Below, in pieces: positions 1,924-43,176 of a stretch of 43,621 nt of DNA. Both the position numbers and the translations under genes were made by a program. Numbering within the stretch: the stretch's first letter is position 1; every line of letters begins with the position of its first letter. The notes under the pieces are model-generated. The model had not been told where the DNA came from. It saw nothing but the letters and a program-made list of their open reading frames with translations, and ran no database searches. The DNA comes from Anaerolineae bacterium (GTDB lineage Bacteria > Chloroflexota > Anaerolineae > CG2-30-64-16), in NCBI GenBank assembly GCA_026645775.1, contig JAPKMS010000320.1, forward strand, positions 1 through 43,621. The letters run 5' to 3'.

Positions 1924-2973
1924 TCACACAATCTCGATCCCCTCGCCTGCCACCACATCCCCGATGACCCACGCAGGTTGGCTGCCCCTGGCGCAGAAAT
2001 CCAGGAACACCTTCAACTGCTCGGGCGATACCGCAACCAGCAGCCCTCCGGAGGTCTGCGGATCGTGCAGCAAGGTCTCCTGCCAGTCAAGCACGGGGCG
2101 GGTGTAGGTGACCAACCGGTTGTAGAACGCGTGGTTGTTGTGCGCGCCGCCGGCGAAGACCCAGCCCTCGGCATAGCTCAGCGCCCCCGGCAGCCAGGGC
2201 AGCGCGTCGAAACGGATGCGGAAACGCACGCCGGCTGCCTTCGTCATCTCGGAGGCATGGCCGATCAACCCGAAGCCGGTGATGTCGGTCACCGAACGCA
2301 CATCGGCGGCCTGCGCGGCCTGAGAGGCGACCCGGTTCAGCCGCGTCATGCTGGTGACCGCCGCGTCCAGGTGATCCGGTGCGACCTGGCCCCGTTTCAG
2401 AGCGGTGGTGATCGTGCCGGTGCCCAGCGGTTTGGTCAGGATCAGCGTATCGCCCGGCTGCGCGCCGCCCTTGGTCAGGATGCGGCCGGGATGCACGACG
2501 CCGGTGACGGCCAGCCCGAATTTCGGCTCTTTATCCTGGATCGTGTGCCCGCCCGCGATGGCCGCCCCCACCGAGAGCACGACGTCAGCGCCCCCGCGCA
2601 GGATGTCCGCGAGCAGCTCCGCGGGTAGGTCGGGCGGGAACGCCGCAATATTCAGCGCGAAGAGCACTTCGCCGCCCATGGCATAGACATCGCTCAGCGC
2701 GTTGGCCGCGGCGATGGCGCCGTACTCGTAGGGCGTATCCACGATCGGCGTGAAGAAATCCACCGTCTGGATCAAGGCGATCTCATCGCTGAGGCGGTAG
2801 ACGGCCGCATCATCGGGCGCGCCGAGGCCCACCAGCAAATTAGGATGCTGATCCACGGGGAAGAGGTTGTCCAGTGAGCGCAGAACCTGCGCAAGCTGCT
2901 CAGGGGGCAGCTTGGACGCTCAGCCAGCGCACGAGCTGAGGCTCGTGAGTTTAATGATTTGTTCGCGGGTCAA
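1924..2973 (-). CDS. selD: Selenide, water dikinase SelD, selenocysteine-containing (TGA at 2920-2922)
   Basis: Makes selenophosphate from selenide and ATP. Downstream of a GTG at 2856 the protein matches SelD (GLGAPDDAAVYR, SDVYAMGG, GGHTIQDKEPKFGLAVTG, DITGFGLIGHA) but would lack the N-terminal catalytic loop. That loop is present upstream in the same frame once TGA at 2920-2922 is read: the sequence gives SLSSCAG-U-ASKLPPEQ, with the TGA where SelD has its catalytic Cys or Sec. I chose TTG at 2973 as start: GGAG lies 9 bases before it, and it gives 349 residues with Sec at 18, matching the family length and the catalytic Cys17 of E. coli. The gene stands alone. Sec readthrough is inferred; a pseudogene is less likely because everything else is intact. 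Confidence 0.87.
2893..2919 (-). promoter_or_regulatory. Candidate bacterial SECIS hairpin after the selD TGA
   Basis: Directly after the TGA the coding strand has GCGTCC and then a perfect 7-bp stem, AAGCTGC with GCAGCTT, around the 7-base loop CCCCTGA. Outer GCG/CGC pairs across a small internal loop can extend it. A hairpin just downstream of UGA is where SelB binds in bacterial Sec mRNAs. Position and stem are seen; SelB binding is inferred. Confidence 0.6.
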
Positions 2974-3053
2974 GAGTTGGGTCTCCGTGTGCGGTTTGTT
3001 TGGATGATACCGAATAGATGGAGATGCTATCTGTTTCCGTACCGTCGAAAGCC

Positions 3054-4783: not shown

Positions 4784-4857
4784 AGCAAAGAATTTTGCGA
4801 GAGTCAAGCCGGTGAATTAAATTTTCGTCTGCTATGCGGCTCACGGAGGATGCGTCA

Positions 4858-5538
4858 ATGCAACTCATGGTGGCGATCGTTCAGGATGAAGATGCCGATC
4901 GCTTGAGCAAACGTCTCAATGCCGCGGGATTTGGCATCACCCGCCTCAGCACCGTGGGCGGGTTTCTGGCGAGCGGCAACGTCACGGTGTTGATGGGCTT
5001 GGAAGATGACCGTGTCGATGATGCGTTGAAAATCATCCGGGCCGCCTGCCGTACGCGACTGCGGTTCATTAACCCCACGCCTTGGGGCACAGAACCCGCA
5101 CATCTATCTGTCACCGCACCGGGGATCCCGCTCGAGATCCAGGTGGGCGGCGCCACGGTGCTTTGTGTGCCGGTCAAACGCTTTGTGTCTCCAAATCGCA
5201 CCGTGACCGCACCCGTCACCTGCAGGCCCGGCAACCTCACGCCATCCAGTGAAGGAGCGCCTGTTATGAATCTGATGGTCAGTATCGTGGCAAGTGAAAA
5301 CGCCGAACCGGTCACGCGCGCGCTGCTGGCGGCCGGCTATCGGGTGACGCGTATGAACACTGCGGGCGGGTTTTTGCGGCGCGGGAATGTCACCTTGCTG
5401 GTCGGCGTCGAAGAGGCCGGTGTCGATGACGTGTTGCGCATCATCGGCGCCAACAGCCGGATCCGGCCAGAGGGTGCGGGTATAGGCTCCGGCGCAACAA
5501 CTTTCGTGCTTGACACGACGCGTTTCGTGCGCGTCTGA
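4858..5538 (+). CDS. Tandem PII-like cyclic-di-AMP receptor (two DarA/YaaQ-type domains)
   Basis: Two DUF970/CdAMP_rec domains in one 226-residue chain. Each has the family pattern of a short first strand, then T-x-GGFL-x-x-GNVT-hydrophobic: STVGGFLASGNVTVLMG (domain 1, from residue 1) and NTAGGFLRRGNVTLLVG (domain 2, from residue 137). Standalone family members are about 110 residues and bind c-di-AMP as trimers. ATG at 4858 was chosen because GGAGG lies 8 bases before it and it matches the standalone paralogue at 16861. Domain 2 has its own ATG (5266) preceded by GAAGGAG, so it may also be made alone. Domain 2 has a shorter loop before its last strand. Nucleotide binding by both domains is inferred. 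Confidence 0.85.
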   Translation: MQLMVAIVQDEDADRLSKRLNAAGFGITRLSTVGGFLASGNVTVLMGLEDDRVDDALKIIRAACRTRLRFINPTPWGTEPAHLSVTAPGIPLEIQVGGATVLCVPVKRFVSPNRTVTAPVTCRPGNLTPSSEGAPVMNLMVSIVASENAEPVTRALLAAGYRVTRMNTAGGFLRRGNVTLLVGVEEAGVDDVLRIIGANSRIRPEGAGIGSGATTFVLDTTRFVRV

Positions 5539-16818: not shown

Positions 16819-16860
16819 ATTCGGATTACTCATGGCTTGATACCTTCAGAGGAGCATCCA

Positions 16861-17187
16861 ATGAAACTCATTATGGCCATCGTCAGCAGTGATGACTCTC
16901 GCGATGTTTTGGATCGCTTAACCAAAGCCGGTTTTCGCGCCACTGTGATCGGCACGACCGGCGGATTTTTGCGCGAAGGCAATACCACCATCTTCCTGGG
17001 CATCGAGGATCAGAAGGTCTCTGCGGCGCTGGATATCTTGCAGCAGGTGTGCCGGCGGCGTTCGCAGTGGGTGTCGCCGCTGCCCACCCTGGAAGGCCCG
17101 GGGTTAGAGATGGCCGAGCCGATCGAGGTGAGCGTGGGCGGTGCGGTGGCGTTCGTAATGAATGTGGAGCAGTTTATCCAAGCGTAG
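16861..17187 (+). CDS. PII-like cyclic-di-AMP receptor (DarA/YaaQ family)
   Basis: Single-domain member of 108 residues, the normal family size. It begins MKLIMAIVSSDDSRDVLDRL and carries GTTGGFLREGNTTIFLG, the conserved Thr-Gly-Gly/Gly-Asn-Thr stretch that contacts c-di-AMP. The C-terminal IEVSVGGAVAFVMNVEQF completes the fold. Such proteins form trimers and relay c-di-AMP levels to unknown partners. AGAGGAG lies 7 bases before ATG 16861. It is 42 bases after tmk. It is a paralogue of the fused two-domain protein at 4858. Confidence 0.92.
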   Translation: MKLIMAIVSSDDSRDVLDRLTKAGFRATVIGTTGGFLREGNTTIFLGIEDQKVSAALDILQQVCRRRSQWVSPLPTLEGPGLEMAEPIEVSVGGAVAFVMNVEQFIQA

Positions 17188-25365: not shown

Positions 25366-26739
25366 TCAGGTTACTGGCTGGCTGCCATAGTACATTTCCG
25401 GCGTATCAATATCCTGCAGGACCTCCGGCGTCGGCCAGTCCACCCAGGCGATCTCGTCCCGGTGGGCCTGGATGATGGGTCGCGCGCCGATGTCCCCCTG
25501 GAGTCGCTCGAATTCCTTGAAGGTGGCAGCGTCGAACAGGACCGGGTTGCCGCGCTGACCCAGATAACGTGGAGCCACAATGGGTGCCAGTGTTTCGCGG
25601 TGGCGTTGGATGAGGGCAGCGAGCAGCTCAGGCGAAACGCCGGGTTGGTCAGCCAGGAGGAAGATGACGGCGGAGAGGGGCTGTGAAGCGGGGCGCGCGG
25701 CGCGCGGCGCAAGGGCCTGTAAGCCGGCCAACACGCTGCGACTCTGGCCCGCGGCCCAATTGGGGACGGACACGGCGAGCACAGCGCGGTGCCCCAATGC
25801 GGCCCGCACGGCGTCTTTCCCGGCGCCCAGCGTCACAGCGATGCACTGGATGTCCGGGCAGGCGAACGCCTGGTCAGCGACGTGTGCGACGAGCGGAACG
25901 CCGCCCCAGGGCAGCACCTGTTTGAGCGCGCCGTAGCGTTTTGCTTCGCCCGCGGCTAACACCACCGCACCCACGCGGCCCCAAACCTCCCGGATCGGAT
26001 CGGCGGCCTGCGCGGCGCCGACCACGACGCTGTCGACCCGGTCGTTCAGCAAGAGCAGCCGGGCGATCTCCCGCGCGGCGGCCAGGCCGGCTTCGTCTTC
26101 GGCTTTGTTCAAGAACGGGACCAGGCGCGCCTGCGCGGGGACGTCTTTGCCGCCGCCGGCGGGGTGCGCCAGAACCGCCGCGATCATGGCGGGCGTGACC
26201 GGATCGCCCAGCGCGGCGCCGGTCAGCGCCGCGACCTGTTCGGGGCGGTGGACGTGTTCTGCCGTCAGCGGGCGGCCCAAGATGTCCAGCCCGACAATGG
26301 GCATGACGAGGGTCGTGCTCGACGGGATCACCGGCTCATGGTCGGCGGGCGCTTTGAACGGCAGCCGCCGCGAGCCGTCCGCCTCAACGATCACGGCATC
26401 CACGGCTGGATGCGCGGCGATGCGATCCAGGAGGGCGGACGGCACGCCCTGCACCTTGTCCTGCTCGACAATCGTCCCGCCGGCGACCAGGACGTGACCG
26501 TGGTCGGCCAGCGCCTGTGGCAGTTGCGCCAGCAACGCGCCTTCCCCCTCCAGCACCAGCCGCGCGGGGGCGCGCTCCATCTGGCCGACGAAGATCTTGG
26601 TCGTCATGGTCGTGACGACGCGGCCGCCGGTTGCGGCCAGCTCATCCGCCAGGCGGAACATCGTCGTGGTCTTGCCGCCCCCGCCGACCAGCGCGATGAC
26701 GTCTTTGGAGCGGATGCGGAGGGCATGACGGAATTGCAT
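25366..26739 (-). CDS. YqeC-MocA fusion: selenium-dependent hydroxylase accessory protein + Mo cofactor cytidylyltransferase
   Basis: Protein of 457 residues with two complete domains. Residues 1-245 match YqeC: VIALVGGGGKTTTMFRLADEL as P-loop, TTMTTKIF, VIVEADGSRRLPFKAPADHEPVIP, and FLNKAED. Residues 250-457 match MocA-type nucleotidyltransferases, which add CMP to molybdopterin: AVVLAAGEAKRYGALKQ, LLADQPGVSPELL, and RYLGQRGNPVLF. YqeC is a marker of selenium-dependent molybdenum hydroxylases, and selD, xdh-like subunits, SsnA and YgfK all occur in this window. ATG 26739 is chosen over the upstream frame because YqeC-like sequence begins there. Confidence 0.88.
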   Translation of the reverse strand: MQFRHALRIRSKDVIALVGGGGKTTTMFRLADELAATGGRVVTTMTTKIFVGQMERAPARLVLEGEGALLAQLPQALADHGHVLVAGGTIVEQDKVQGVPSALLDRIAAHPAVDAVIVEADGSRRLPFKAPADHEPVIPSSTTLVMPIVGLDILGRPLTAEHVHRPEQVAALTGAALGDPVTPAMIAAVLAHPAGGGKDVPAQARLVPFLNKAEDEAGLAAAREIARLLLLNDRVDSVVVGAAQAADPIREVWGRVGAVVLAAGEAKRYGALKQVLPWGGVPLVAHVADQAFACPDIQCIAVTLGAGKDAVRAALGHRAVLAVSVPNWAAGQSRSVLAGLQALAPRAARPASQPLSAVIFLLADQPGVSPELLAALIQRHRETLAPIVAPRYLGQRGNPVLFDAATFKEFERLQGDIGARPIIQAHRDEIAWVDWPTPEVLQDIDTPEMYYGSQPVT

Positions 26740-26756
26740 GGCATCCCTTCGTGTGT

Positions 26757-28337
26757 TTACACGCGGCGCAACCCTTTCGGGTAATGGCTCTTCAGCCGGC
26801 CGCCTGAGCGTTTGCCCCAACCGATTGAGAAGCCACCCACGGCGACCAGCACCCAGCCTTCTTCGCCGGAGCTGGGGAAGATTTCCCCGCGCAGATAGGC
26901 TGCCAGCTCAGGCGCGTCCGCGGGGAGATCGAGCACGCGGTGGGCATTCTCCGGCTTCAGCCCCAAAGCCAGGGCGTGCGACGGCTCGAAGCGATCCTTT
27001 TTGATCGTGCCCAACCACCAGCCGGGGTGCAGGTAGCGCAGGGCGGTCAGGTCGGGCAGGCCGGCCGGCAGCGCGTACAGGTAAGACCCGACCAGGGCCA
27101 GGGCAGATGGAGAACCGATCCATGAAGCGTCACGAAGGTCGCTCCGTTCATCCTGGGTTGGCTTCATGTGACTTTGTGGATCGGGCAAATTCAAAGTGGT
27201 CCTGCAAAATGTATGATAAGCCTCTTCAACCGGCCTCGGGAGTTTTACCGACCGCCAGGGTTTGATCGACGGGGCGGGAGTCGCAGGGTCTGCCCGTTTC
27301 AGCACGGCGATGAAGTGCCCTTCGCCCGGCGCCAGGTGAGGCCACAGGCGAACGGCGCGGGTCAAATCTATGCGTGAGGCGCCAGGTGCTTCCGAGGTGC
27401 CCGGCGCCTGTTCGGCGAGCCAATCCGGCCTCCCGGGTGAAAAGCCCAACTGCCGCGGCAGCTCGACCAGCCCGAATTCGTGATGGGCTTCCAGGAACCG
27501 CGCCAACGTCCCCTCGTTTTCCTCCGGGTTGAAGGTGCACGTCGAATAGACCAGCCGGCCGCCGGGGCGCACCAGGGATGCCGCCTGCTCGATGATGCCG
27601 GTCTGGCGCAGCGCGCAGCCGCGCACCAGTTCGGGCTCCCATTCGCGCCGCGCCACCTCGCTCTTGCGCAGCATCCCCTCGCCCGAGCAGGGCGCGTCCA
27701 ACAGCACCCGATCGAAAAAGCCCGGAAAGCGCTCGGCCAGACGCTCCGGGGTCTCTTGGGTGATCGCCGCGTTGTGTGCGCCCCACCGCTCCAGGTTGCC
27801 GGCCAGCTCCCAGGCGCGTTTGGGGTGGATCTCATTGGCTACCAGCAGGCCGTCGCCCTGCATCAGTGCGGCGATGTGCGTCGCCTTGCCGCCGGGCGCG
27901 GCCGCCAGATCGAGCACCCGCTCGCCCGGCTGCGGATCGAGCAGCTCGGCCACCGCCATCGCGGCGGGGTCTTGCAGGTAGTAGAGGCCGGCCGCGTGGT
28001 AGGGGTGCTTACCGGGGGCAGCACCCTGGCGACCGAGGTCACGGCTACCATCGCGAAGTCTGCCTGCGCAGACTGCCGCAGCCGATGGATCGCTGCTTCC
28101 TGGATGCACCTGAAACCCGGCCGGGCACCACGGCACCGGCGACAGATCAAACGGGGCCAGCCGCAGAAACTCCTCGGCCATGATCTTCAGCGTGTTCACC
28201 CGCAGCCCAACACTTGGCGCCGCGTCATAGCTTGCCAGGAACGCGGGGAATTCATCGCCCAGCAGCCCCGCCATGCGTTCCAGGAAGGGCGTGGGGATGT
28301 TCGGAGGGGGGACCTGTGAGATGTGCAACTCCGTCAT
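26757..28337 (-). CDS. RsmF/NSUN-type rRNA (cytosine-C5) methyltransferase
   Basis: Uses SAM to make 5-methylcytosine in rRNA or tRNA. The 526-residue product has HAAGLYYLQDPAAM, LDLAAAPGGKATHIAAL (SAM loop), LDAPCSGEGMLRK with the P-C catalytic motif, STCTFNPEENEG with the second catalytic Cys, and a C-terminal PUA/RsmF-type region (YLHPGWWLGTIKKDRFEPSHALAL). Two stretches look inserted: residues about 86-107 (bases 28017-28081), between the usual motifs before HPYHAAG, and residues 388-405 (27122-27175). Both keep the frame. ATG 28337 follows the ggt stop by 17 bases. Confidence 0.9.
   Translation of the reverse strand: MTELHISQVPPPNIPTPFLERMAGLLGDEFPAFLASYDAAPSVGLRVNTLKIMAEEFLRLAPFDLSPVPWCPAGFQVHPGSSDPSAAAVCAGRLRDGSRDLGRQGAAPGKHPYHAAGLYYLQDPAAMAVAELLDPQPGERVLDLAAAPGGKATHIAALMQGDGLLVANEIHPKRAWELAGNLERWGAHNAAITQETPERLAERFPGFFDRVLLDAPCSGEGMLRKSEVARREWEPELVRGCALRQTGIIEQAASLVRPGGRLVYSTCTFNPEENEGTLARFLEAHHEFGLVELPRQLGFSPGRPDWLAEQAPGTSEAPGASRIDLTRAVRLWPHLAPGEGHFIAVLKRADPATPAPSIKPWRSVKLPRPVEEAYHTFCRTTLNLPDPQSHMKPTQDERSDLRDASWIGSPSALALVGSYLYALPAGLPDLTALRYLHPGWWLGTIKKDRFEPSHALALGLKPENAHRVLDLPADAPELAAYLRGEIFPSSGEEGWVLVAVGGFSIGWGKRSGGRLKSHYPKGLRRV
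27122..27175. repeat. Candidate palindromic insertion in RsmF-like gene (second site)
   Basis: CATGAAGC near 27122 and GCTTCATG near 27165 form an 8-bp inverted repeat around about 34 bases. It lies in a poorly conserved linker of the protein and encodes charged residues (DERSDLRDAS). Confidence 0.45.
28017..28081. repeat. In-frame palindromic insertion in RsmF-like gene (first site)
   Basis: Contains AGTCTGC-CTGC-GCAGACT (28057-28074) and the flanking words GACCGAGGTCACGG and CTACCATCGCGA. It encodes about 22 small residues just before the conserved KHPYHAAGLYYLQDP motif, where family members have a short turn. Confidence 0.5.
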
Positions 28338-37678: not shown

Positions 37679-40009
37679 CTACCCCTTGCCCCGCAACCCC
37701 CGCCAGACCCGCTCCGGCGTCAGCGGAAACTCATCGAAGCGCACGCCGATCGCATCGTAGACGGCGGCCGCAACGGCTGCCGCCGCGGGCAGGAAGGGCA
37801 TCTCGCCCATGCCGCGCGCACCGTATGGCCCGTTGGGGTCGGGCACCTCGACGATCAGGGCGTCCATCTGGTCGGGCACGTCAAGGATGGTTGGGATCAG
37901 GTAGGTGCTGAACTTGTCGGTCAGCACGCGACCCTCGCGTGCCTTCCACTCCTCCTGGATGGCGTAGCCCAGCGCCTGCACGGCCGCGCCTTCGATCTGG
38001 CCGGTCACCTGCTGTGGGTTGATGGCCTGGCCCACGTCATCCGCGCTGATGAAGCGCTCAACCTTGATCTGCCCCGTCTCGGTGTCCACCGCGACCAGGG
38101 CGACCTGGGCCACGTAGCCGTAGGCGAAGTTGGGCTGCCCCTGGCCGGTCTCAGGGTCAAGTTTGGTGGTTTTGGGCGCCAGGTAGATGTACTCGCCGAC
38201 GGCCGGGCGATCCTCGTTCTGCCAGGCCGCCAGCGCCTTTTCGGCCGCGCCCTTGACCGCGTTGCCGCTCATGTAGGTCAGCCGAGACGCGGACGCGCTG
38301 CCCGAGCTGCCCATGAGCGATGTGTCGGAGGCAACCACTTTGACCCGCTCGAACGGCACGCCGGTCACCTCGGCCGCGACCTGGGCGATGATGGTGTGGT
38401 TGCCCTGGCCGCAGTCGGCGCCGGCAAAGTAGACCGTCGCTTCGGCGATCTCGCCGGCCCCGCGCAGCTCGACCCGCGCATAGCTGTTCTCCTGATAGCC
38501 GAAGCTGAAACCGACGTTTTTGAAGCCGGCGGCAAAGCCGAGGCCGTGGCGGATTGGGGATTGGGGACTAGGGACTAGGGACTGGGGATTGGGGATTCCT
38601 GACTCCTGGCTCCTGCCCCCTGATCCCTGATCCCTGGTCCCTAATCCCACCGGCTTCCGCCACTGTCCCGCCTCGTCCTGCGTCCAGCCGGCCGCTTTCG
38701 CGGCGGCGATGATGGTCTCGGTCATGCCGACGCCGCCGGGAATGGGGGTGCCGACGGTGAGCAGGCTTTCATCGGTCAGGATGTTCCGCAGCCGGATCTC
38801 CACCGGGTCAAGGCCCAGCGCCTCGGCCAGTTTATCCATCTGGCTTTCGGCCGCGAAGTGGCCCTGGGGGCCGCCGAAGCCGCGAAACGCCGCGCCCGGC
38901 ACGTTGTTGGTGTAGACCGCGTAGGTGTCCACGGCCACGTGCGGGATGTCGTAGGGACCGGTGCAGGTGAGGGTGGTATTGCCCAGCACTTTGTTGCTGG
39001 TGTACATGTACGCGCCGCCGTCAGCGATCACTTTGACTTCCACGGCGGTGAGCTTGCCATTCCGTTTCGCGCCCCACCTGGTGTAGATCTTCATCGCGTG
39101 GCGTTTGCCGTGGCCGATGATGGACTCCTCGCGGCTCCAGATGGTCTTGACCGGCCGCACAATGCCGCGCTGTGCCAGCCGCCAGACGGCCAGCGCCAGG
39201 GTGATCTGCACCGACATGTCCTCGCGGCCGCCGAACGCGCCGCCGATGGCCGGGTAGATGACGCGCACCTGTTCCTTGGGGATGCCCAGTGCGTGGGCGA
39301 TCTGGCCCTGGTCTTCGTGCGTCCACTGCCCGGCCACCTCCACGGTGACGCGGCCAGCCTCGTCCAGGTAGGCTACGCCGGCCTCCGGCTGGAGATAGGC
39401 GTGCTCCTGCACTGGGGTACGGTAAACCCCTTCGATGATGACATCTGTCTCGCGGAAGCCGGTCTCGACCTCACCCTTGCGAATACGGTAGCCGTAGCAG
39501 ACGTTGTCTGCCCTGTGCGGGTGAAGCTGAAACGGCACAGGGCGTGTGGGGTCGGGATCGCCCAGCCCGCCCGCCAACGACGGCGCGGCCGCTTCCGGGT
39601 CGGTGATGACCGGCAGGTCTTCCCACTCAACGCGGATCAGCTTACACGCGGCGCGGGCCTGGACCTCGGTCTCGGCCACGACGAGCGCGACCTGGTCGCC
39701 GACGAAGCGCACCCTGTCTGCGCCTGCGAGGGTGGATCCCGGCCCGCACAGCACGGGTTGATCCTTGATCTGGAGGCCGTACTCGTTCACCGGCACGTCG
39801 GCGGCGGTGAAAACGGCCACGACGCCCGGCGCGGCCTCGGCAGCCGCGGTGTCAATGCGCACGACGCGCGCATGCGGCCGGCCGGCGAACAGTGTCGCCA
39901 GGTGCAGCATATCCGGCGGGGTGATGTCGCCGGGGTAGAGTGTCTTGCCTGTGACCTTGCCCGCGGCGTCGATGCGGGGGGCGTCGGTCCCGATAGTTTG
40001 GTAGGTCAT
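37679..40009 (-). CDS. Molybdenum-binding subunit of a xanthine dehydrogenase-type hydroxylase
   Basis: Large catalytic subunit (776 residues) that hydroxylates N-heterocycles or aldehydes at a molybdopterin site. Order: N-terminal aldehyde oxidase a/b hammerhead (GKTLYPGDITPPDMLH ... ARVVRID), then the Mo-binding part with AFRGFGGPQGHFAAE, ADCGQGNHTIIAQVA, MGSSGSASASRLTYMSGNA and the C-terminal GARGMGEMPFLPAAAAVAAA, where Glu is the expected catalytic base. ATG 40009 has GGAAG upstream. A 98-base G-rich palindrome is inserted at residues 454-486. YqeC, SelD, SsnA and YgfK nearby suggest a selenium-dependent enzyme with a labile Se ligand, not Sec. Confidence 0.92.
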   Translation of the reverse strand: MTYQTIGTDAPRIDAAGKVTGKTLYPGDITPPDMLHLATLFAGRPHARVVRIDTAAAEAAPGVVAVFTAADVPVNEYGLQIKDQPVLCGPGSTLAGADRVRFVGDQVALVVAETEVQARAACKLIRVEWEDLPVITDPEAAAPSLAGGLGDPDPTRPVPFQLHPHRADNVCYGYRIRKGEVETGFRETDVIIEGVYRTPVQEHAYLQPEAGVAYLDEAGRVTVEVAGQWTHEDQGQIAHALGIPKEQVRVIYPAIGGAFGGREDMSVQITLALAVWRLAQRGIVRPVKTIWSREESIIGHGKRHAMKIYTRWGAKRNGKLTAVEVKVIADGGAYMYTSNKVLGNTTLTCTGPYDIPHVAVDTYAVYTNNVPGAAFRGFGGPQGHFAAESQMDKLAEALGLDPVEIRLRNILTDESLLTVGTPIPGGVGMTETIIAAAKAAGWTQDEAGQWRKPVGLGTRDQGSGGRSQESGIPNPQSLVPSPQSPIRHGLGFAAGFKNVGFSFGYQENSYARVELRGAGEIAEATVYFAGADCGQGNHTIIAQVAAEVTGVPFERVKVVASDTSLMGSSGSASASRLTYMSGNAVKGAAEKALAAWQNEDRPAVGEYIYLAPKTTKLDPETGQGQPNFAYGYVAQVALVAVDTETGQIKVERFISADDVGQAINPQQVTGQIEGAAVQALGYAIQEEWKAREGRVLTDKFSTYLIPTILDVPDQMDALIVEVPDPNGPYGARGMGEMPFLPAAAAVAAAVYDAIGVRFDEFPLTPERVWRGLRGKG
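38551..38648. repeat. GGGATTGGGGACTAGGGA-type palindrome inserted in the Mo-subunit gene
   Basis: The left half repeats GATTGGGG and ACTAGGG; the right half repeats TGATCCC and ends CCCTAATCCC. The halves are complementary, and each strand has five or more runs of GGG spaced by about 4 bases, so both a hairpin and G-quadruplexes are possible. It adds about 33 residues in frame. It shares GATTGGGGACTAGGGA with the copy at 40926 and 27 of 28 right-arm bases with that at 41388. Confidence 0.85.
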
Positions 40010-40058
40010 AGCTGTCTTCCTCTGGTTGGATAGACGAGTAGCCAAGGAAATAAGGAAA

Positions 40059-40077
40059 CGGGGAAACAAGGAGACGC
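40059..40077. repeat. Purine-rich GGAAACAAGGAGACG word upstream of the Mo-subunit gene
   Basis: GGGGAAACAAGGAGACGC is the same word family as the ABC-ATPase linker insertion at 141-250. It lies in the 81-base gap between the fused subunit gene and the Mo-subunit gene. Confidence 0.45.
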
Positions 40078-40090
40078 GCGCACTATCGTA

Positions 40091-41635
40091 CTATCGCACT
40101 GTCGCCCGCTCGATCGCTTCCAGGATCTTGTAATACCCCGTGCAGCGGCACAGGTTGCCGGTCAAAGCCTGCTTGACCTGGTCGGCAGTGGGCTGTGGAA
40201 ATTCTTCCAGTAAATTCGCCGCGGACATCAGGATGCCGGGGGTGCAATAGCCGCACTGGACCGCCGCGGCATCGATGAATGCCTGTTGGAGCGGGTGCAA
40301 CCTCACCCCCGCCCCCTCTCCTGCCAGGAGCGGGGAGGCAGGGGAGAGGTCCGCCAGCCCTTCCACCGTGACCACCTCGCACCCCTCCGCGCGTTCCGCC
40401 GGCACCAGGCAGCTCATCACCGCCACGCCGTCGAGCCAGACCGTACACGCGCCGCACTCGCCCTCGGCGCAGCCCTCTTTAGTCCCGGTGAGACCCGCGT
40501 CCTCGCGCAGCGCGCGCAGCAGGGTTTTGCCGTGGGCATTGTGGAGCACGATTGGTTTGCCGTTCAATGTGAAGGTGATTGTGTGGGGGTGTGGGAGTGT
40601 GGGAGTAGACTTGAGCACTCCCATACTCCCATACTCCGACACCCTGCCACCCTGCAACAACACCGGCTCCTCCGGCCACCCTTCCCGTTCCGTGCCATCG
40701 CGCAACTGGCGCAAGGATCGGGCGGTTAACACGCGCACCATGTCGCGGCGATAGTCGGCGCTGCCGCGGACATCGGTGATGGGGCGGGCGGCGGCGGCCG
40801 TGAGTTCAGCCGCGCGTTCGATGACCTCGTCGGTCAACTCTTTGCCCGCCAGATAGGCTTCGGCCTCCCCCGCTCGCACGATGGTGGGCGCAACCGAGCC
40901 GAGGGCGATGCGAGCATGGGTGACCGGGGATTGGGGACTAGGGATAAGGAATTCTCCTGATGCCCATTCCCTGGCTCCTAATACCACCGCCACATTCACC
41001 ACGCTGATCGCCTGCGCCTGCCGCAACCCCAGCTTCAGGAAGGTGCCGCGTTCAGTGGGTTTCAGGGCCGGGACGTTGATGCGGACGAGCATCTCATCGG
41101 GTTGAAGCGCGGTCTTGCGCACGCCGCGGAAGAACTCGGCGCAGGTCAGGGTGCGCTCCCCGCGGTCGCGGCTGGCCAGGGTGAACGTGGCATCCATGGC
41201 CCACAGCGGCGTGATGGTGTCGTTCGCCGGGCTGGCGGTGATGCAGTTGCCCGCGACCGTGCCGCGGTTGCGAATCTGCGGCGCGCCGACCAGCCAGCAG
41301 GCGCGCGCCAGCGGGAAAGCGTGCGCCACCGCATCAGGCGTGCCGACCACCTGGTTGTGGGTGACGTTGGCGCCCAGGGTGAGGTGAGGGATTGGGGCCT
41401 GGGGATCAGGGACCGGGAAGCTGGCGTCTGATCCCTGATCCCTGATCCCTAATCCCCCGATTTTACCCAGCCCCGGGATGCGCGAGACATCAATCAGGGT
41501 CTCCGGCGTGCGCACCCCGCGCTCGATCTCCAGGATCAGGTCGGTGCCGCCCGCGATGAGACGAGCGTTGCTGTGCTGCGCCAGCAGGTCGAGCGCCTCA
41601 GCAACGCTGTCCGGCGCGTAGTAGGTGTGCCACAT
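40091..41635 (-). CDS. Fused FAD-binding and [2Fe-2S] subunits of the molybdenum hydroxylase
   Basis: One 514-residue chain doing the work of two electron-transfer subunits. Residues 1-310 are the FAD part (LIAGGTDLILEIERG, GAPQIRNRGTVAGNCITASP, AQAISVVNVAVVLG, ADYRRDMVRVLTARSL). Residues 350-514 are the iron-sulfur part: FTLNGKPIVLHNAHGKTLL, GCAEGECGACTVWLDG for the plant-type cluster, then QCGYCTPGILMSAANLL and GNLCRCTGYYKILEAI for the second cluster. Electrons would pass Mo to 2Fe-2S to FAD. ATG 41635 has GGAG 7 bases upstream. Four low-complexity insertions lie in loops, including one at the domain junction. It precedes the Mo-subunit gene by 81 bases. Confidence 0.9.
   Translation of the reverse strand: MWHTYYAPDSVAEALDLLAQHSNARLIAGGTDLILEIERGVRTPETLIDVSRIPGLGKIGGLGIRDQGSDASFPVPDPQAPIPHLTLGANVTHNQVVGTPDAVAHAFPLARACWLVGAPQIRNRGTVAGNCITASPANDTITPLWAMDATFTLASRDRGERTLTCAEFFRGVRKTALQPDEMLVRINVPALKPTERGTFLKLGLRQAQAISVVNVAVVLGAREWASGEFLIPSPQSPVTHARIALGSVAPTIVRAGEAEAYLAGKELTDEVIERAAELTAAAARPITDVRGSADYRRDMVRVLTARSLRQLRDGTEREGWPEEPVLLQGGRVSEYGSMGVLKSTPTLPHPHTITFTLNGKPIVLHNAHGKTLLRALREDAGLTGTKEGCAEGECGACTVWLDGVAVMSCLVPAERAEGCEVVTVEGLADLSPASPLLAGEGAGVRLHPLQQAFIDAAAVQCGYCTPGILMSAANLLEEFPQPTADQVKQALTGNLCRCTGYYKILEAIERATVR
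40301..40349. repeat. CCCCCTCTCCTGCC palindrome inserted in the iron-sulfur part
   Basis: GCCCCCTCTCCTGCC and GGCAGGGGAGAGG are near-complementary around AGGAGCGGGGA. It adds about 16 residues (PASPLLAGEGAGV) between the two cluster motifs and keeps the frame. Related sequences with translations of this type recur across bacteria as small palindromic elements. Confidence 0.7.
40582..40655. repeat. GTGTGGGAGTGTGGGAG palindrome at the FAD/2Fe-2S junction
   Basis: The left half repeats GTGGGAGT/GTGGGGGT; the right half repeats ACTCCCAT and CACCCTGC. It codes for about 25 residues exactly where the FAD and iron-sulfur domains join. Confidence 0.7.
40926..40984. repeat. GATTGGGGACTAGGGA palindrome inserted in the FAD part
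   Basis: The left half shares 16 identical bases with the copy at 38551; the right half CATTCCCTGGCTCCTAATACC is its degenerate complement. It adds about 20 residues in a loop after the strand VVNVAVVLG. Confidence 0.75.
41388..41456. repeat. GGGATTGGGG...CCCTAATCCC palindrome near the FAD-part N-terminus
   Basis: The left half is GGGATTGGGGCCTGGGGATC; the right half repeats TGATCCC three times and ends CCCTAATCCC. It adds about 23 residues (GGLGIRDQGS ...) between DVSRIPGLGKI and HLTLGANVTH and keeps the frame. Confidence 0.8.
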
Positions 41636-41647
41636 AGTCAAGCTCCG

Positions 41648-41844: not shown

Positions 41845-43176
41845 TCACCCCACCCGCTTCCACACCCCAACCGCCAGCTCCCGCGCTTTCGCCATGATGG
41901 CTTCTTCATCCAGCAGGGTCAGCTTCTTGTCGGCCATCAGCACTTTGCCCGAGGCGATGGTGTGGGTGATGTGTGCGCCATCGACGCCGAAGAGGATGTG
42001 CCACGGCAGGTTGCCGGCGCTGAGCGGCGTTGGCGGCGCATAGTCCAAGAGGATGATATCGGCAAACGCGCCGGACGCCAACTCGCCCACCGGTTTCGGG
42101 AAGAAGCGCTTCGCCAGGTTGGCGTTGTTCGGATAGGCCATTTGCATGACGACATCGCCCGGCATGGCCTGCGGATTGTGGGTGTTGTGTTTGTGCGCCA
42201 GGTACGCGGTCTTCATCTCGTCGATCATGCAGTTGGAGAAGCCGTCGTTGCCCAATGCCACCGGGATGCCGCGGGCCAACATGCCGGCCACATCGGGCAG
42301 CCCCACCGCGTTGTTCATGTTGGAGCGCGGCTGATGCGTCACCAGCGTGCCGGTCTCGCGCAGGATGTCCTTCTCGTACTCGTCCAGGTGTATGCAGTGG
42401 ACCGCGATGGATTTCGGCCCCAGGATGCCAAGGCGGTTCAGACGCTCGACCACGCGCAGGTTGTACTTGCGCAGGCTTTCATCCTGGTCGGCGATGCCCT
42501 CTGCGACGTGGACGTGGAACCCGGTGTTCAGCCCTGCGACCGCCGCGACGCTGGCTTCCAACGTCTCATCGGAGCATGTGAGCGCAGCGTGCAGGCCGAA
42601 GGAGGCGCCCAACTGCGGGTCTTGCTGCGCCCGGCAGCGCTTGATGAAGCGGGCGTTCTCGGCGATGCCGGCCCTGGCGCCGCCCATGCCGTTGCGGTCG
42701 GTCACTTCGTAACACAGGCTGGCGCGCAGCCCGGTCTCCTTGACCGCGTCCGCGATGATGTCCAGGCTGCCATCAATGGCGGTCGGACTGGCGTGATGGT
42801 CAATCAGCGTGGTGCAGCCGTGGCGCACCGCGTCCACCAGGCAGATCAGCGCACTGTACTTGATGTCGTCCCACAATAGCGCCAGGTCCAACTTCCACCA
42901 GAGCCGCTCCAGGATCTCTACGAAGTTGGTGGCCGGCGCGCCGGGGATCGCCATGCCGCGCGCGAACGCGCCGTAGAAGTGGGTATGGCCGCACAACATG
43001 CCCGGCAGCACCAGTTTTCCGCCCGCGTCCAGCCTTTGGGCAGCGGGGTATTTCGCTGTCAGCGCCGCCGTGGGGCCGACGTCCACGATGGTGTCGCCCT
43101 CCCAGTAGACCGCGCCGTCGGTGAACTCGCGGTTGGATTTGTCGAGGGTGAAAACATGACCGTTTGTGATAAGCAT
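41845..43176 (-). CDS. ssnA: Putative aminohydrolase SsnA
   Basis: Amidohydrolase-superfamily enzyme of 443 residues, normal for SsnA. Metal-site features: GMLCGHTHFYGAFARGM (H-x-H), TLIDHHASPTAIDGSL, HVHVAEGIADQDESLRKY, HCIHLDEYE, and ALGNDGFSN near the end, with the C-terminal beta strand ADIILLDYAPPTPL. SsnA deaminates or hydrolyses purine-related rings and is typically found with YgfK, xdh-like hydroxylase, YqeC and SelD. It starts 48 bases after the YgfK stop. The substrate is not proven for this family in general. Confidence 0.92.
   Translation of the reverse strand: MLITNGHVFTLDKSNREFTDGAVYWEGDTIVDVGPTAALTAKYPAAQRLDAGGKLVLPGMLCGHTHFYGAFARGMAIPGAPATNFVEILERLWWKLDLALLWDDIKYSALICLVDAVRHGCTTLIDHHASPTAIDGSLDIIADAVKETGLRASLCYEVTDRNGMGGARAGIAENARFIKRCRAQQDPQLGASFGLHAALTCSDETLEASVAAVAGLNTGFHVHVAEGIADQDESLRKYNLRVVERLNRLGILGPKSIAVHCIHLDEYEKDILRETGTLVTHQPRSNMNNAVGLPDVAGMLARGIPVALGNDGFSNCMIDEMKTAYLAHKHNTHNPQAMPGDVVMQMAYPNNANLAKRFFPKPVGELASGAFADIILLDYAPPTPLSAGNLPWHILFGVDGAHITHTIASGKVLMADKKLTLLDEEAIMAKARELAVGVWKRVG

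Follow-up and report, generated by a model that had tools for sequence, protein, structure and literature searches.

Selenophosphate synthetases (SelD) that contain selenocysteine (Sec) have long been known in bacteria. One survey places Sec in 19% of the SelD genes of reference prokaryotes, always at the same position (PMC4561486), and another lists 38 Sec SelD proteins (PMC1794560); the selD gene described below is otherwise what such published surveys lead one to expect. For the hairpin that directs Sec insertion in bacteria, the legend of Fig. 2 in PMC13188914 gives a set of bSECIS rules: a loop of 3–9 nt, a stem of 4–16 bp, a G within the first two loop positions, a distance of 16–37 nt from the UGA and an MFE of at most −7.5. 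Selenium traits have likewise been surveyed, and YqeB/YqeC described as a marker set (PMC5029168, PMC2276186). Closer to the organism considered here, Sec-containing formate dehydrogenases are reported from Anaerolineales single-cell genomes (PMC4959059). The term SelD is absent from the main texts of PMC4959059 and PMC5736913, and our literature search found no paper devoted to Sec-SelD in Chloroflexota.

The locus examined here lies in a 43,621-nt stretch of an Anaerolineae genome (GCA_026645775.1, contig JAPKMS010000320.1), which we refer to as the window. The selD gene, encoding selenide water dikinase, occupies positions 1924–2973 on the minus strand; translated with TGA as Sec, it forms an unbroken frame of 349 codons from 2973 to 1927, closed by a terminal TGA stop at 1926–1924. 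Its TTG start codon (2971–2973, minus strand) follows a ribosome-binding-like GGAG, 9 nt further 5' (2983–2986, minus strand), and the start position is common to nine same-family genes including this one, with TTG in six and ATG in three. In the selD gene of L019, a TGA stands immediately 5' of the TTG start. The in-frame UGA (2922–2920, minus strand) forms residue 18 in the motif SSCAG-U-ASKLPP. Motif, length and start signals had all been pointed out in the sequence-only reading, which named no strand, and all can be read directly on the minus strand. The same reading had held that a start at GTG 2856 leaves out the catalytic loop and that an automatic gene caller would truncate the gene; the table 11 listing indeed contains only a 310-aa ORF from that GTG (1924–2856) in which the loop is missing, so that annotation by a gene caller would shorten selD.

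The read-through product is identified as SelD by profile TIGR00476 (381.6 bits, cut-off 125) and also scores above the cut-off of NF002098 (353.3 bits against 299). A phmmer comparison with the solved SelD structure 3u0o, chain A, gives an E value of 4.4e-76 and aligns residue 18 with Cys 17 of that chain. More precisely, U18 and K21 (residues 33 and 36 of P0001) align with the C and the K of the GAGCGCK motif in 3u0o; we take the Cys or Sec, together with the Lys three residues on, to be the catalytic residues of SelD. With a probability of roughly 0.96, we consider this selD to be intact and of the standard bacterial kind, with a UGA-encoded Sec as its catalytic residue that would be inserted under the direction of a SECIS.

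Comparison with relatives indicates that the UGA is a shared feature. We translated 84 selD loci (30 + 54, own included) and called the catalytic codon with one script: 81 have UGA, one has a Cys codon (L142), one is N-masked (L112) and one is unaligned at the site (L143). An alignment of the N terminus with other SelD proteins, proposed on first reading of the gene, bears out an in-frame TGA at the catalytic position, with a conserved UGA codon column and Cys in 3u0o. Recurrence of the UGA at this one codon, in 81 of the 84 loci with our own included, excludes chance as an explanation. The Sec form is nearly fixed in the class (81 of the 82 fetched loci in which the codon could be read). These 81 loci are spread over 78 genomes, and addition of three partial matches with TGA (G034, G037 and G055) brings UGA-SelD to 81 of 100 genomes, namely our own and 99 relatives, of which 94 have some selD match, in some cases merely to distant kinases. 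Close relatives of selD that carry names, among the best 80 of 566 confirmed stretches, are mostly from Chloroflexota MAGs, many of them Anaerolineae, and it is on these relatives that we assign the window to the phylum. Sec in SelD is the usual state for the class, and this gene encodes a real but ordinary selenoprotein. It resembles Sec-containing SelD of other bacteria in its catalytic-codon UGA, the presence of SelA and SelB in the genome and a SECIS within the gene; it differs in belonging to a class where Sec is nearly fixed, and we see no functional difference.

Some members of the set depart from this pattern. The same-family genomes G005 and G008 harbour second, divergent Sec-SelD copies (L137, L140 and L141) with the motif SHGAGUACKIGP, attributable to paralogy, transfer or contamination. 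The Cys-SelD at L142 (G057:C515) lies in a 770-aa open frame in a genome that also has a UGA-SelD copy. It may represent a fusion or contamination, and we left it out of the Cys controls.

As controls we used all 19 selD entries without a stop among the matches listed for 301 genomes of the phylum. They belong to the same protein family and share the codon position with the Sec-SelD described here, but they have Cys (TGC or TGT) at the catalytic codon in 19 of 19 cases. The family shows a conserved in-frame UGA alongside aligned Cys homologues, a combination expected of a bacterial selenoprotein. A hairpin of at least 6 bp that obeys the loop and distance rules is found in 80 of the 81 genes of the first Sec set and in 17 of 20 genes of a second, hand-picked Sec set, but in only 7 of the 19 Cys genes (Fisher p of 6e-10 and 0.003, respectively).

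In the gene itself, the candidate that fits these rules is a hairpin at 2877–2893 on the minus strand, with arms 2893–2887 and 2883–2877 enclosing the loop GUU (2886–2884). Its stem has 6 bp here and 7 in most relatives, its loop lies 33 nt 3' of the UGA and its folding energy is −9.2 kcal/mol. Across the 81 genes, 90.3% of cells are paired, and double changes occur in five of the seven pairs (20 cells); pairing is kept by compensating changes in variants such as UUGGUGCAG-GUU-CUGCAACCA, in which one A is bulged, and UGUCGCAG-GUC-CUGCGACA. The covariation score was reached by none of 500 shuffles, which ignore relatedness and can be exceeded through kinship alone. A handful of class genes, among them L043, L046, L108, L116 and L124, lack the hairpin in the common register. 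RNAalifold, applied to the whole alignment of 81 sequences, predicted zero pairs, which counts against a SECIS, and Rfam at gathering scores gave no match anywhere in the window.

Because the hairpin sits inside coding DNA, we examined synonymous constraint beyond that imposed by the protein. Codons +9 to +14 after the UGA rank top for synonymous conservation among 337 six-codon windows in selD. Ranked individually among 335 codons, the stem codons +10, +13, +14 and +11 take places 1, 3, 4 and 5, and the loop codon +12 is free (place 293). Measured against synonymous randomisations, the stretch exceeds their mean stability in 78 of the 81 genes (mean z −2.18), and the comparison stretch, codons +13 to +19, does so in 17 of the 81 (mean z +0.46). 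The core of the E. coli fdhF SECIS presumably resembles GCAGGUUCUGC of selD here, with a GGU-type loop and a stem closed by CAG/CUG. The fdhF loop lies about 18 nt from its UGA. Relative to that element, the loop of selD is further off, at 33 nt, and an additional stem intervenes. The hairpin at 2893–2877 conforms to all the bSECIS rules quoted from the Fig. 2 legend, its loop lying close to the greatest distance, 37 nt, that this model allows (PMC13188914). Covariation, synonymous conservation and these rules together suggest that it is likely the SECIS of selD. The outcome for this locus is one corrected gene model with a proposed place for its SECIS, and, with Sec-SelD nearly fixed in the class, its genes form a large natural collection on which SECIS rules could be mapped.

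The additional stem is the one nearest the UGA. It lies at 2892–2914 on the minus strand (arms 2914–2907 and 2899–2892), where it overlaps the foot of the distal stem. A hairpin after the TGA had been noted in the sequence-only reading, and it does exist, with 8 bp in the gene's own sequence, a CCCCTGA loop and a distance of 13 nt from the UGA; however, the fold of the 56 bases around it is no more stable than that of shuffled sequences (z −0.02), the hairpin falls outside the bSECIS rules and the next one, at 2893–2877, is the better candidate. Across the 81 class genes its pairing reaches 51.7% of cells, and 46.7% in a version with a shorter loop. Given this level of pairing, a loop whose first two positions lack G and the 13-nt distance, we rejected it as the SECIS. 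Against synonymous randomisations, codons +1 to +9 fall on the stable side in 73 of 81 genes (mean z −1.06), with an empirical p of 0.05 in only 19 of 81, and codons +1 to +8 give a mean z of −0.45. Selection for pairing shows less strongly here than at the distal hairpin, and the proximal stem may have some role. One could tentatively, and with considerable doubt, picture the selD SECIS of the class as a two-hairpin element, in which a distal SelB-binding hairpin near the distance limit is joined by a UGA-proximal stem that drifts in sequence and register and tends to keep its pairing. Such a proximal stem would perhaps keep the distal loop close to the ribosome, or else slow termination.

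Elsewhere in the genome, a MAG of 478 contigs, the machinery for Sec decoding is largely present. A full-length selA (match at 2.5e-143) and a selB encoding the GTPase, the beta-barrel and two winged-helix domains were both found, as befits a genome with a bacterial selenoprotein. The initial prediction of SelA, SelB and tRNA-Sec elsewhere in the genome thus held for the two proteins; tRNA-Sec was not found in the assembly, though it scores at least 60 bits in seven of nine same-family relatives (G001, G003–G007 and G009), with the TCA anticodon confirmed by ARAGORN in the four relatives checked. Over the 478 contigs, the best scores with RF01852 are 44.9 and 41 bits, below the cut-off of 47, and ARAGORN assigns these to tRNA-Leu. 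A BLAST search of the same contigs with a relative's tRNA-Sec gave no credible match, and an anticodon-arm pattern gave three matches with two mismatches, none of them a tRNA-Sec. One gene recurs on the 5' side of tRNA-Sec in three of these four relatives (G001, G006 and G007); in G005 there is a match of 44 residues only. Its counterpart in our genome (C11:156–1175, 78% identical) faces a contig end, with some 120 bases between that end and its start, so that an assembly gap is likely and offers the simplest account, and the organism itself would presumably have a tRNA-Sec; the remaining bases at that contig end contain no part of one.

Misses of this kind are common in these genomes, given that 10 of the 81 with UGA-SelD, own included, have no tRNA-Sec match of at least 60 bits; selB at 1e-60 is missing from 4. 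Among the 100 genomes, UGA-SelD and selB occur together in 77, UGA-SelD alone in 4, selB alone in 7 and neither in 12 (Fisher p 6e-8), and the corresponding figures for tRNA-Sec of at least 60 bits are 71, 10, 6 and 13 (p 2e-6), these p values treating related genomes as independent and MAG gaps blurring both sides. A formate dehydrogenase alpha gene (G000:C334:15401, L169) is a second selenoprotein gene of this genome. It has an in-frame UGA in the motif HCARL-U-HSP, which we take to be the catalytic position of the enzyme, and a GGUCU loop 18 nt downstream.

Could the UGA be an artefact, with TGC or TGT as the true codon and SelD an ordinary Cys enzyme? A single-base change gives Cys, and a MAG in 478 contigs leaves room for sequencing or assembly errors, yet the identical UGA in 81 of 84 loci in practice refutes this account, and a further argument against it is that a SECIS hairpin is under selection, while 12 of 19 Cys genes have no rule-fitting form of it with 6 bp; we consider such an error exceedingly improbable. 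The 310-aa ORF under table 11 would also be compatible with a pseudogene, or with a shortened functional protein beginning at GTG 2856. This is very unlikely, as the frame 5' of the UGA is conserved in relatives up to the aligned start codon and the short form would be without the catalytic residue and its Lys.

It is likewise very improbable that, through reassignment or suppression, an amino acid different from Sec is inserted at the UGA, a possibility to which the tRNA-Sec missing from the assembly lends some weight. Set against it are the termination of selD itself at a TGA, the presence of SelA and SelB, a SECIS-like hairpin under selection and the nature of residue 18 as the site where SelD carries Cys or Sec. 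Judged from these sequence comparisons, the UGA of selD is almost certainly read as Sec.

Under this Sec reading, SelB with Sec-tRNA-Sec would read the hairpin at 2893–2877, about 33 nt past the UGA within the coding sequence, and Sec would be inserted at residue 18 to give full-length SelD. The complete enzyme would then convert selenide and ATP to selenophosphate, which SelA would use to make the Sec that SelD itself needs. As SelD here would need Sec to make Sec, the organism would depend on a self-feeding loop. The Se-dependent molybdenum hydroxylase system, for which the window has marker genes, is probably supplied by SelD as well.

That system is represented by four genes in the window, all on the minus strand. 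A YqeC-MocA-like fusion ORF (25366–26820), an accessory of the Se-Mo hydroxylase, matches TIGR03172 at 201.1 bits (cut-off 73.05) and the MocA-like nucleotidyltransferase profile TIGR03310 at 128 bits, below the cut-off of 186.45. A molybdenum-binding subunit of a xanthine-dehydrogenase-like hydroxylase (37679–40069) matches pucD at 542.7 bits and Se_dep_XDH at 454.5 bits, both under cut-offs, and the subunit with FAD and Fe-S (40091–41641), which belongs to this type of hydroxylase too, has all its matches under curated cut-offs. An SsnA-like, selenium-associated aminohydrolase (41845–43176) follows, with 529.7 bits against TIGR03314 (cut-off 455.5). Outside the window, YqeB is encoded at C267 (TIGR03309, 355.6 bits, cut-off 220), so the genome holds SelD, YqeB and YqeC, the combination that marks the Se-dependent molybdenum hydroxylase trait. 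The early suggestion that Sec decoding coexists with this trait is borne out at the gene level by the YqeC-MocA fusion, the Xdh-like subunits and SsnA in the window together with YqeB at C267. Two other ORFs of the window, at 4834–5538 and 16837–17187, have matches to DarA, a family of cyclic di-AMP receptors, with the score of the second falling below the cut-off.
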